A stretch of 53,074 bases of DNA from Verrucomicrobiota bacterium (GTDB lineage: Bacteria; Verrucomicrobiota; Verrucomicrobiia; Limisphaerales; UBA11358), in assembly GCA_021324235.1 (NCBI GenBank), contig JAJPJM010000101.1, forward strand, positions 1-53,074. Direction: 5' to 3'. The position numbers and the translations under genes were made by a program. The notes beneath the pieces were generated by a model that was given only the letters and a program-made list of their open reading frames with translations, searched no databases and had not been told where the DNA came from. This document shows positions 44,751-48,146 of this stretch, piece after piece. Every line of letters begins with the position of its first letter. Within the stretch, counting starts at the first letter, position 1.

Positions 44751-46076
44751 ATGAAACAGAGTCAATCGGAAAAACTGTTTGCCGAGGCGTTGAGATTCAT
44801 CCCCGGGGGTGTCAACTCACCGGTGCGCGCGTTCCGCGCCGTCGGCGGCCAGCCGTTTTTCGTCAACCGGGCCCAGGGCGCACATCTGTGGGACGTGGAC
44901 GGCAACGAGTTCATTGATTACGTCTGTACCTGGGGGCCGGCGATTCTCGGCCATGCGCATCCGAAAATCATTTCCGCCGTCAAGGCCGCGGCCGATCACG
45001 GCACCAGTTTCGGCGTCCCCAATCCACAGGAAGTGACCATGGCGAAGCTGATTTGCTCGCTCGTGCCCGGTGTGCAGAAGGTGCGGATGACCAATTCCGG
45101 CACCGAGGCGTGCATGAGCGCCATCCGTCTGGCGCGCGGATTCACCGGGCGAGATAAAATCGTCAAGTTCGACGGCTGTTATCATGGTCATGCGGATTCT
45201 CTGCTGGTCAAGGCGGGCAGCGGCGCGCTCACGTTCGGCCATCCGGACAGCGCGGGTGTGCCGGCGGCGTTCACACAACACACCATCGTCTTGCCATTCA
45301 ATGATGTTGACGCCGTAACGGCCGCGGTCGAAGCGAATAAAAATCAAATCGCCGGCATCATCGTCGAGCCCGTGCCGGGCAATGCCGGGCTTTATCTGCC
45401 CCAACCGGGTTATCTGGAATTTCTTCGGGAAATCACGCAGGCGAACGGGGCGTTGTTGATTTTCGACGAGGTGATGACGGGGTTCCGCCTGGCCCCCGGC
45501 GGGGCGCAGGAACGGTTTGGCATCACGCCGGATTTGATGTGTTTCGGCAAAATCATTGGCGGCGGCCTGCCGGTGGGTGCGTTCGGCGGGCGGGCGGACA
45601 TCATGGATTTGCTGGCGCCGCTGGGACCGGTTTACCAAGCCGGCACGTTGAGCGGCAATCCGCTGGCGATGGCAGCGGGCATCGCCGCGCTGGAGGAATT
45701 GAACATCGGTAAGGACGCGCGGACCGCGCGTCCGACGGACGGCCCGGCGGGCCGTCCCTACCAACATCTGGAACAACTCGGCGCGCAACTGGAAGCGGGG
45801 ATGAAGGACGCCGCGAAATCCGCCGGTATTCCGGTCACGTTCAACCGTTGCGGCTCGATGTTTTGCGCCTACTTCACAAGCGGACCGGTTCATCATCTGG
45901 CCGACGCGATGAAGAGCGACCGCGCGCGGTTCGCCAAATTTTTCCACGGGATGCTGGCCAGGGGCGTTTACCTCGCGCCCTCACAATTCGAGGCGGGCTT
46001 CCTTTCCACCGCGCACACGGCCGCGGACATTGATTCAACGGTAAAGGCCGCCGCAAGCGTGATGCGCGGGTGGTAG
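44751..46076 (+). CDS. hemL: Glutamate-1-semialdehyde 2,1-aminomutase, with repeat insertion
   Basis: Makes 5-aminolevulinate for heme and other tetrapyrroles; PLP-dependent, cytosolic. A 441-aa protein: [60 protein letters not shown] and the PLP lysine in [17 protein letters not shown] (about K267). Near residues 320-338 about 18 extra residues ([18 protein letters not shown]) separate EELN from the helix [14 protein letters not shown]. They are encoded by a double-hairpin repeat (45708-45762). Relatives go straight from ALEEL to a short turn here. Catalytic parts are intact. The upstream gap to the divergent oxidoreductase (92 bp) holds both promoters. Confidence 0.96.
45708..45762. repeat. 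Double-hairpin palindromic repeat inserted in frame in hemL
   Basis: Arms GGTAAGG and CCCTACC enclose GGACGCGCGG-A-CCGCGCGTCC and GGACGGCCC-GGC-GGGCCGTCC, both perfect. Architecture equals that at 1129-1180 in lysS, although the stem sequences differ, so arms and plan are conserved rather than stems. Confidence 0.88.
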
Positions 46077-46147
46077 CCATTCTTGGGAGCCGTTTCTCTT
46101 CGTTTTGGCTGTAACATTTGCGGGGCCATTTTCGTATTAAAATCAGT

Positions 46148-46618
46148 ATGAAAACGAACAAATGGATTACCCTTACCCTGGCCGCCGCGCTGAATCTCGG
46201 CGGCTGGTTGACGACCCCATCACTGGCCGCCGACACCGCCATGCCCGCGCACAGGGGATTTTTTCAGCGCATCGCCCAAAGATTGAACCTGACCGACGAC
46301 CAAAAGGCACAGATTAAAACCATTTTGCGGTCGGAAAAGGACACCCTGAAACCAATGCTCGGCCAATTACACACCGCGCGGGAAAATCTGCGCGCGGCCA
46401 TTCAAGCCGGCGACGCCAACGAGACCTCCGTGCGCACCGCATCGGCCCAGGTGGCCGCCGTGGAGGCCGATTTGGCAGTTGAACGGATGAAAATTTACGG
46501 CAAAATCGCGCCCATTCTGACCGATGAACAGCGTCAGCAAATCAGCGATTTTCAGCAGCGCGCGGACGATTTTACGGACCAGGCCATTGCCCACACCGGC
46601 GACGGGCTGGCCAAATGA
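46148..46618 (+). CDS. Spy/CpxP-like periplasmic protein (LTxxQ family)
   Basis: A 156-aa exported helical protein. Signal peptide residues 1-28 (TLTLAAALNLGGWLTTPSLA, cleavage near AADT). The mature protein has the Spy-type LNLTDDQKAQIKTILRSEK and a second half-motif ILTDEQRQQISDFQQRADDF, separated by a heptad-like helix (REN-RAAIQAGDANE-type). Spy/CpxP proteins are periplasmic chaperones or stress sensors. It precedes an ECF sigma factor by about 85 bp, and a second LTxxQ protein ends the operon, so it may be the sigma factor's target or sensor. ATG 46148 is used; an in-frame start ten codons upstream lacks a signal peptide. Confidence 0.82.
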   Translation: MKTNKWITLTLAAALNLGGWLTTPSLAADTAMPAHRGFFQRIAQRLNLTDDQKAQIKTILRSEKDTLKPMLGQLHTARENLRAAIQAGDANETSVRTASAQVAAVEADLAVERMKIYGKIAPILTDEQRQQISDFQQRADDFTDQAIAHTGDGLAK

Positions 46619-46621
46619 TTT

Positions 46622-46648
46622 CAGGGCTGGAGTTCGGGTTCCAGCCTG
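46622..46648 (+). terminator. Stem-loop between the Spy-like and ECF sigma genes
   Basis: GGCTGGA (46625-46631) pairs with TCCAGCC (46640-46646), perfect over 7 bp, four bases after the Spy-like stop. No T-run follows. It could be an attenuator or processing site. Confidence 0.35.
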
Positions 46649-46702
46649 CCGGGAGTGGCGGAGAACCGCAACCGTGAATTCGCACAACCGGCAGGCCAAA
46701 AC

Positions 46703-47284
46703 TTGAACTCCACCGAAACCGCGAGTAACGATGCCGAATTGCTGGAGCGCATCCGTGGCGGCGCCACCGACGATTTTGCCGAACTCATCCGGCGGCATCA
46801 ATCGCGCGTTTTTGCCATTTTGCACCGATATGAACGTGACGCCCACAAAGTCGAAGACCTCGCGCAGGAAACCTTTCTCAAGGCCTGGCGCGCGCTGGGG
46901 CAATTTGACGGCCGGGCGCCTTTTGAACACTGGCTTTCCCGCATCGCCGCGCGGGTGGCGCTGGACCACTTGAGAAAGGAAAAACGCCGGCAGAATGAAA
47001 TCGGCCTGCCCGAACTTGGCGACGACGCGCTGGACTGGCTGCGCAGCGACGATGAGAAGAGCGAGCTGGACGCGCGCAGCGCGGCGGAACTGCTTGAGCT
47101 GGCGATGCGGGAATTATCGCCCGCCGACCGGGTGGTCATCACGATGCAGGAACTGGAAGGCCGGAGCGTGAAGGAAATTGCCGCGGTGATGGGCGCCTCC
47201 GGCGTGGCGGTGCGCGTGCGGGCGATGCGGGCACGATCGAAACTGCGGCAGGCTTTGGAAAAAATTGCGAAGGAAAAATTATGA
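46703..47284 (+). CDS. ECF-type RNA polymerase sigma factor
   Basis: A 193-aa sigma-70-family factor with only regions 2 and 4. Region 2 (about 10-85): LLERIRGGATDDFAELIRRH, KVEDLAQETFLKAWRALGQF and a WLSRIAARVALDHLRKEKRR segment. Region 4 (about 125-185): LAMRELSPADRVVITMQELE, GRSVKEIAAVMGASGVAVRV and RAMRARSKLRQALEK. The start is uncertain: TTG 46703 has GCAGG upstream at usable spacing, while GTG 46655 gives 16 more residues. Its stop overlaps the next gene by four bases (ATGA). The overlap with a small one-helix protein is the usual sigma/anti-sigma layout. Confidence 0.92.
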   Translation: MNSTETASNDAELLERIRGGATDDFAELIRRHQSRVFAILHRYERDAHKVEDLAQETFLKAWRALGQFDGRAPFEHWLSRIAARVALDHLRKEKRRQNEIGLPELGDDALDWLRSDDEKSELDARSAAELLELAMRELSPADRVVITMQELEGRSVKEIAAVMGASGVAVRVRAMRARSKLRQALEKIAKEKL

Positions 47285-47589
47285 ACGACCGGAAACTGAA
47301 ACGATTGTTTGCGTCGGCACGCCTGGAAACCCCACCCGCGCCTCCCGGGGATTTTGCCGCAGACGTGCTGCGGGCTGTTCGCCGCGGGCCACCCGCGGCC
47401 GCACCGGAAAGCCTCTCCGTTTTTGACCAGTTGAATCTGTGGTTTCCACGCCTGGCACTGGCGGCGTCAACGGTCATCGTCTTGTGCTGCGCACTGGATT
47501 ACGGACTGACCGCGGCGGGTGTTCCGAGTTTGAGCGACGGCGTGTCGCAGCTTTCCGCACAGTGGCTTTTGACGCCGGCCGGACTTTGA
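47281..47589 (+). CDS. Small one-TM protein, likely anti-sigma factor
   Basis: A 102-aa protein with a basic cytosolic head (KLKRLFASARLETPPAPPGD) and an amphipathic stretch (FAADVLRAVRRGP). One membrane helix lies at about 56-75 (LALAASTVIVLCCALDYGLT), followed by a short outside tail. It has no zinc-binding HxxxCxxC motif, so it is not a ZAS-type anti-sigma. Overlap with the ECF gene and single-helix topology make an anti-sigma role plausible by position. Function is otherwise unknown. Confidence 0.65.
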   Translation: MNDRKLKRLFASARLETPPAPPGDFAADVLRAVRRGPPAAAPESLSVFDQLNLWFPRLALAASTVIVLCCALDYGLTAAGVPSLSDGVSQLSAQWLLTPAGL

Positions 47590-47592
47590 TTT

Positions 47593-47979
47593 ATGAAGAC
47601 CTTGAAATTGTTGGCATTGATAACGCTGGTGTTTATGGCCGGGGTGGCGGCCGGCGTGGTCGGCACGCGTCTCGTCATCCGTCACTGGGTGAACACGGCC
47701 ATTCAACGCCCGGAAAACTTTCAGTTGCTCCTGGAACGCAACCTGCGTTGGCGGCTCCAACTCGACCCGCGCCAGCGGGTGAAGGTGCATCGGATTCTGA
47801 CCGATGCGCGCGTCCAGTTGCGGGATTTGCGGCAGGAATATCGTCCGCAGGTCGTCGCCGTTCTTACCAATACCGAGGCGCAAATTTCCGCCGTCCTGAC
47901 GCCCGAACAGCAGGCGCGTTTTGAACGGATGCAACAGGAAAACCAGCACTTCCTTCAGCCAGCACCGCCCGAACGGTAA
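47593..47979 (+). CDS. Spy/CnrX-like membrane-anchored periplasmic sensor
   Basis: A 128-aa protein with one N-terminal helix (LKLLALITLVFMAGVAAGVV, uncleaved or cleaved near residue 25). A helical periplasmic domain has ERNLRWRLQLDPRQRVKVHR and the family LTPEQQARFERMQQENQHF. CnrX-type periplasmic sensors regulate ECF sigma factors through a membrane anti-sigma, as in the Cnr nickel/cobalt system. The order Spy-like, ECF, small TM protein, Spy-like fits that model. Metal ligands (His/Met clusters) are sparse, so general envelope stress is equally likely. It begins 3 bp after the previous stop. Confidence 0.78.
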   Translation: MKTLKLLALITLVFMAGVAAGVVGTRLVIRHWVNTAIQRPENFQLLLERNLRWRLQLDPRQRVKVHRILTDARVQLRDLRQEYRPQVVAVLTNTEAQISAVLTPEQQARFERMQQENQHFLQPAPPER

Positions 47980-48069: not shown

Positions 48070-48146
48070 GCGCGCGTAGCTCAATTGGATAGAGCGTCGG
48101 CCTCCGGAGCCGAAGGTTGTGGGTTCGACCCCCGCCGCGCGCACCA
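48070..48146 (+). tRNA. tRNA-Arg (anticodon CCG)
   Basis: A 77-nt cloverleaf seen directly: acceptor GCGCGCG/CGCGCGC, D arm GCTC...GAGC with AATTGGATA loop, anticodon stem TCGGC/GCCGA with loop CTCCGGA (anticodon CCG), variable AGGTT, T arm GTGGG-TTCGACC-CCCGC (one G-T pair), discriminator A and encoded CCA. Anticodon CCG reads CGG arginine codons. Confidence 0.97.

Follow-up and report, generated by a model that had tools for sequence, protein, structure and literature searches.

A probably autoregulated ECF sigma factor operon enclosed by two Spy-like proteins in Limisphaerales-type Verrucomicrobiota: conserved gene order and a proposed envelope-stress switch

What controls an ECF sigma factor whose gene lies between those of two Spy-like proteins, and would such a module respond to envelope stress or to metals? 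The question is raised by a locus on contig G000:C159 of a draft verrucomicrobial genome (3.09 Mb, 185 contigs); this contig, the whole stretch of 53,074 nucleotides that was analysed, is here called the window. The original prediction had described a periplasmic Spy-like protein, an ECF sigma factor, a one-helix protein without a zinc motif and a membrane-anchored Spy-like protein, and had read them as a compact envelope-stress or metal-sensing module.

Operon structure and predicted promoter

Four co-directional open reading frames occupy positions 46148-47979, where they had been predicted, in the order secreted Spy-like protein (P0001), ECF sigma factor (P0002), 102-aa protein (P0003) and membrane-anchored Spy-like protein (P0004). 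They are flanked by hemL (44751-46076, named from its protein) on one side and a tRNA-Arg(CCG) gene (48070-48146) on the other. The sigma stop codon and the P0003 start overlap as ATGA, and 3 bp separate P0003 from P0004; the set of reading frames and both junctions are as first described. The features of the locus are as follows.

46110..46139, plus strand: predicted ECF-type promoter, TGTAACATTT-N13-CGTATTA (-35 TGTAAC, 17-nt spacer, -10 CGTATTA)
46148..46618, plus strand: P0001, secreted Spy/CpxP-like protein of 156 aa (Pfam LTXXQ and Metal_resist above cut-off; family profile matching Spy and CpxP structures)
46620..46722, plus strand: insertion with a strong RNA hairpin at the usual sigma start site (folding energy, comparison with close relatives)
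46655..47284, plus strand: P0002, ECF sigma factor (Sigma70_r2 and r4_2; start GTG 46655 or TTG 46703, uncertain)
47281..47589, plus strand: P0003, 102-aa protein with one transmembrane helix, probable class II-like anti-sigma factor (ATGA overlap, predicted helices, sigma adjacency)
47593..47979, plus strand: P0004, membrane-anchored Spy-like protein, probable sensor or co-regulator (helical model, profile kinship to the P0001 family and to Spy)

The search for an autoregulated promoter upstream of 46148, proposed together with the original prediction, returned the predicted motif at 46110-46139; even with three mismatches allowed, the window contains no other match (0.02 expected by chance). 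The pattern [TG]G[AT]AAC-N17-CGT occurs within 150 nt upstream in 17/17 aligned operons with a P0001-type Spy gene (alignment A3, which excludes L015, L016, L018 and L026 for having no such gene), a descriptive count since the pattern was derived from these same sequences. In these operons the C of CGT always lies 14-16 nt from the Spy ATG, and most spacer columns are unconserved. With 16-18 nt spacing, a stricter form of the -35 element is present at 20 of 27 distinct loci, where shuffled sequences would give 0.1, and stands at another position in two of the 20 (L026 and L106). A fairer test than counting on the source sequences is the open search of 49 genus genomes with TGWAACNTT-N14-CGT-N10-13-ATG, in which 37 sites matched, compared with 3 for the reversed pattern. 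It recovered the Spy operons in 11 of 13 operon genomes, missing G592, which differs after the -35 box, and G616, which is without a P0001-type Spy.

Because a sigma-type promoter precedes Spy in every aligned operon, the operon is very probably autoregulated from this promoter and includes the Spy gene. The gap of only 3 nt between Spy and sigma genes in many relatives likewise places P0001 in the operon, so that the coupling originally proposed for the last three genes has to be extended to all four. If transcription starts, as is usual, some 12 nt from where the -10 box begins, the Spy mRNA would have its 5' end 0-5 nt before the ATG and be nearly leaderless.

Similar motifs occur elsewhere. 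In five relatives, hemL and the operon are separated by an additional Spy-like gene (L019 1920-2432, L020 757-1278, L021 1945-2424, L024 1937-2428 and L029 1960-2427), which is absent from the window; TGTAAC-N16/17-CGT precedes it in 5/5 and mostly overlaps the hemL stop codon. Ten matches of the open search precede a DUF1800-like gene. In the source genome, TGAAAC-N17-CGTCT at G000:C21:3714-3754 (L100/L165, minus strand) lies 15 nt before a DUF1800 ATG, and a like motif stands before a DUF1800 protein, recognised by N-terminal likeness, in nine more genus genomes. Some of these genomes have no Spy operon, for which reason the DUF1800 promoter was not assigned to the P0002 sigma factor; it probably belongs to another ECF sigma factor, again with a nearly leaderless message. 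The motif match at L099 lies inside a peptidase-like gene and was rejected as chance.

In close relatives the sigma gene starts at a GTG 3 nt past the Spy stop codon. In the window, about 100 nt are inserted at this site and the usual GTG is gone, the replacement start being either GTG 46655 or TTG 46703 within the insertion, a choice that is uncertain. The region 46600-46730 is predicted to form a hairpin of -57.7 kcal/mol (z -3.9). The insertion (46620-46722) is absent from the close relatives compared and is present in single copy, the only full match in its own genome being itself; its effect may be to reduce the level of sigma compared with that of Spy, or it may be an assembly fault.

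Conservation of the operon and lineage of the sigma factor

Relatives of P0003 were matched in 15 genomes when 196 genomes of the order were searched. The relative is immediately preceded by an ECF sigma gene in 15/15 (the sigma frame of L015 is broken by a stop) and immediately followed by a P0004 relative in 14/15, and a P0001 relative stands upstream of sigma in 11/15. L017 is the exception, with a P0003-like N-terminal stretch heading a longer protein and an ECF sigma gene again adjoining. Within the genus, a full P0003-type match (profile A1, at least 94 bits) occurs in 13 of the 49 genomes, all 13 with sigma and a P0004 relative and 12 with a P0001-type Spy. The phylum scan gave 26 matches among 387 genomes, mostly weak, with the four-gene order in L103 and L106 and also, with a weak Spy match, in L115; L112 has sigma and relatives of P0003 and P0004, with Spy on the opposite strand. 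Among plasmids, nothing matched P0003 at E 1. Two contigs judged by their length to be duplicates were left out (L005 = L020, L008 = L025), seven further locus pairs are identical over the last 120 sigma residues, and alignment A4 excludes L013 (start unsure) and L015 (broken sigma frame).

In the nine wider loci inspected, hemL is matched upstream in L019, L020, L021, L023 and L026, and a downstream tRNA-Arg(CCG) is present in L019, L020, L023, L024 and L026; upstream of L024 and L029 the longest-ORF choice fell on the opposite strand where hemL was expected. Since the same order recurs across many genomes, the arrangement goes beyond chance, and the idea of a compact module of sigma factor, membrane regulator and Spy protein is borne out. 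The operon is conserved in Limisphaerales-type Verrucomicrobiota, where the module is real but patchy.

P0002 contains Sigma70_r2 (3.9e-21) and Sigma70_r4_2 (2e-12), both above the Pfam cut-off, with no Pfam match for region 3, and is an ECF sigma factor by this combination of sigma2 and sigma4 domains; its closest PDB sequences are of the sigma-H/RpoE type, with CnrH weaker. The best 80 of 287 loci encoding a relative of P0002 were examined. Among the 14 best, P0003 and P0004 relatives are present at nine and absent at L027, L030, L031 and L032; L028 is cut off just past the sigma gene. Among the other 66, a related neighbour occurs only at L054, L071 and L085. The sigma factors of L027, L030, L031 and L032 share 49-56% identity with P0002, carry C-terminal extensions and have no recognised anti-sigma or Spy gene adjacent; because such close sigma factors occur without the operon, the lineage can exist without it.

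In the sigma tree (55 rows), 27 operon sigmas, five operon-less ones and one from Opitutaceae (L054) share a common branch (100/99), and 22 of the 27 form one supported group (98/95). The sigma factors of Y-X-H-order loci fall on another branch in 11 of 12 cases (99/96). CnrH is distant, and the placement of its long branch is unsure.

The small membrane protein and the two Spy-like proteins

No Pfam family was found for P0003. Its predicted model (mean pLDDT 78, pTM 0.35) comprises helices at 3-15 and 25-34, a long helix at 47-78 within which the membrane helix lies, and a tail helix at 84-96; this predicted layout, with two cytoplasmic helices before the membrane helix and no zinc motif, fits that of class II anti-sigma factors. 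The Hx3Cx2C motif of ZAS proteins is absent, the sole Cys pair of P0003 sitting in the membrane helix. The original description of an anti-sigma factor not of the known ZAS type is accurate to this extent, but the type is not new: non-zinc anti-sigma factors have been described, including the class II protein CnrY, whose two cytoplasmic helices embrace CnrH (PMC7406223, PMC4598750).

Family searches gave distant matches at best. NCBIfam NF052375 ('anti-sigma factor') matches 14 of 21 P0003 family members weakly at E <=0.1 (best 3.4e-5), P0003 itself scoring 17.6 bits against a cut-off of 100, and NF033790 (CnrY/NccY), which gives CnrY itself 137 bits, matches 0/21 at E <= 0.1. Between P0003 and CnrY, hhalign detected no sequence similarity (probability 0.1%). 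PDB sequence searches returned nothing at E 10 for the P0003 family and one chance match for P0003 alone; in the fold search, the best Foldseek E was 3.6 and the best VIA Z 3.9 (54 residues, 4.3 A), and CnrY was not listed, which proves nothing. Near the N terminus, CnrY and 19 of 21 P0003 members have hydrophobic residues at i, i+3 and i+4 followed by A-R at i+7 and i+8 (0.6% by chance in shuffles; 5 of 1539 ORF starts), a pattern missing from the small protein of Sphingomonas; it was written after viewing both sequences and is not counted as evidence. These positions presumably matter in CnrY, and a literature search on their importance there found no paper. P0003 is a probable membrane anti-sigma factor of CnrY-like architecture. 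Elsewhere in the genome, L129 (G000:C175, 1000-1836) encodes a larger protein in which a similar PxxFxxxVLxA helix is found together with a single membrane helix; its neighbours, named by eye, are an unrelated secreted protein and a gene resembling hemE, and similar weak matches occur in many genus genomes.

P0001 scores 40.6 bits for Pfam LTXXQ (cut-off 24.3) and 39.8 bits for Metal_resist, also above its cut-off; with LTXXQ above cut-off and a signal peptide, judged by eye, it belongs among secreted Spy/CpxP proteins, and its family profile matches the structures of Spy (2.8e-6) and CpxP (7e-4). P0004 matches these two families only below their cut-offs (scores of 22.0 and 19.3 bits), and by that measure lies outside Spy/CpxP. 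Its family profile matches Spy in the PDB at 8.1e-5, with CnrX not listed, and aligns with the P0001 family (hhalign 2.5e-10); by these profile comparisons, the putative sensor P0004 and the putative effector P0001 are homologous. In the predicted model of P0004 (mean pLDDT 84, pTM 0.53), a membrane helix runs into further long helices, and basic residues flank the membrane helix on both sides, the topology being not certain. A PDB sequence search with P0004 alone gave nothing at E 1, and its fold search reached a best Foldseek E of 0.6 and a best VIA Z of 5.7 (49 residues, 2.4 A, an unrelated globin domain); the lack of CnrX and Spy from that list proves nothing.

Proposed switch, alternatives and known systems

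We consider it rather probable that the operon forms an autoregulated envelope-stress switch with CnrYXH-like logic, in which P0003 would act as the anti-sigma factor, P0004 as the gate and soluble Spy as both chaperone and feedback. At rest, the ECF sigma factor would be held at the inner membrane by the two N-terminal helices of P0003, and P0004 would maintain P0003 in that state by binding its periplasmic tail, which is short and partly conserved. Once P0004 is occupied by unfolded or damaged envelope proteins, P0003 would release the sigma factor, and the freed sigma factor would read the predicted TGWAAC-N17-CGT promoter, yielding more Spy, sigma, P0003 and P0004. Finally, soluble Spy, as the homologue of the sensor, would take up client proteins and the switch would reset. 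The protein contacts, the stimulus and the release step, whether conformational or proteolytic, are parts of this scheme that we infer.

A more specific and tentative proposal, possible though somewhat doubtful, is that the CnrY-like anti-sigma factor is gated by a Spy paralogue tethered to the membrane, which senses unfolded proteins directly; one chaperone fold would then be both the sensor and, in its soluble counterpart translated from a nearly leaderless message, the output. If true, this would be a sigma switch that works by chaperone titration and is distinct both from proteolysis of the RseA type and from metal sensing of the CnrX type. Should the envelope-stress reading hold, the CnrYXH arrangement would not be solely a metal device: sigma factors of separate lineages would share its wiring, here with a Spy-like sensor that has no CnrX metal site. 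Verrucomicrobiota would thereby gain a defined sigma system for envelope stress, together with its predicted promoter, and the question would arise how a Spy-like protein relays a signal across the membrane.

Other readings assign different roles to the same proteins. P0003 might be no anti-sigma factor at all and instead a neutral or positive partner, for instance an anchor for P0004, given that no curated anti-sigma family scores above its cut-off; with P0003 overlapping the sigma gene, a sigma gene adjoining its relative in all 15 matches and a class II-like helix layout, this is very improbable. Proteolytic control is an unlikely reading, yet less so: the sigma factor would be freed by degradation of P0003, as with RseA, with no conformational switch, and P0004 would merely shield the tail. 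The roughly 24-residue periplasmic tail is short enough for direct intramembrane cleavage, by analogy with site-2 protease substrates; P0003 ends soon after its membrane helix, and the SxQWL part of the tail is conserved in many members, but the operon contains no protease gene.

The other half of the original prediction, metal sensing, was not supported. It would have P0004 bind periplasmic Ni, Co, Cu or Zn and the sigma factor drive metal resistance, in keeping with a gene content like that of CnrYXH, with the Metal_resist matches of P0001 and P0004 (the latter below cut-off) and with an alphaproteobacterial CnrX relative that adjoins copper genes (L160). However, HxxxH (within the first 60 residues) or HxFxM was found in 0/21 sensors and 0/17 Spy proteins, and both motifs are visible in CnrX itself and in the Sphingomonas protein. 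Cys is absent from all 21 sensors, and the only His column above half reaches 57% in the P0004 family and 82% in the P0001 family. CnrX Met123 is reported as required and conserved (PMC7689651), and no efflux or metal gene was recognised in the nine wider loci, inspected by eye and by matching to the window genes. Because the CnrX ligand motifs are missing, metal sensing was rejected as the main reading and is quite improbable; P0004 may have other kinds of metal site.

The envelope-stress switch that we favour recalls several known systems. Spy and CpxP of E. coli are targets and feedback factors of Cpx. P0001 is likewise Spy/CpxP-like; unlike in the Cpx system, it adjoins an ECF sigma gene, and no two-component system is present among the four genes. 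CnrYXH and NccYXH of Cupriavidus metallidurans also combine a small one-TM anti-sigma factor, a membrane-anchored helical sensor and an ECF sigma factor in one self-regulated operon, with two cytoplasmic anti-sigma helices (PMC4598750, PMC4803752); for P0003 such helices are predicted. They differ in their Y-X-H order (the true order is seen at L159), whereas the operon described here runs Spy-sigma-P0003-P0004, has no CnrX-type metal ligands, includes an extra secreted Spy and encodes a distant sigma factor. Between CnrY or the CnrX sensor domain and P0003 or P0004, hhalign finds no similarity beyond the N-terminal membrane stretch, and direct homology was rejected on this ground.

The source genome contains a second module in the true CnrY-X-H order (L002, G000:C19, 1060-2449), made up of a 103-aa anti-sigma-like protein, a Cys-rich CnrX-like protein (Metal_resist below cut-off) and an ECF sigma factor. 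Comparable sets are found repeatedly in the genus. This module differs from the P0001-P0004 operon in its order, its Cys-rich sensor and its sigma factor, which falls in a separate clade.

In the limited literature collection that we searched, no publication describes an ECF module flanked by Spy genes in Verrucomicrobia. In Azospirillum, RpoE8, a hypothetical protein and a periplasmic heavy metal sensor, which is of the Spy type, are named as one operon, in that locus-tag order (PMC12826043). The resemblance of these three to the last three genes described here is drawn from their description in a list of upregulated proteins, and that account mentions no leading Spy gene (PMC12826043). As this operon is already in print, the arrangement itself is not unprecedented. 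By gene content, the verrucomicrobial operon belongs to the kind that joins an ECF sigma factor, a small membrane anti-sigma factor and a Spy/CnrX-type sensor, and departs from CnrYXH in gene order, in lineage and in lacking the CnrX-type metal site.
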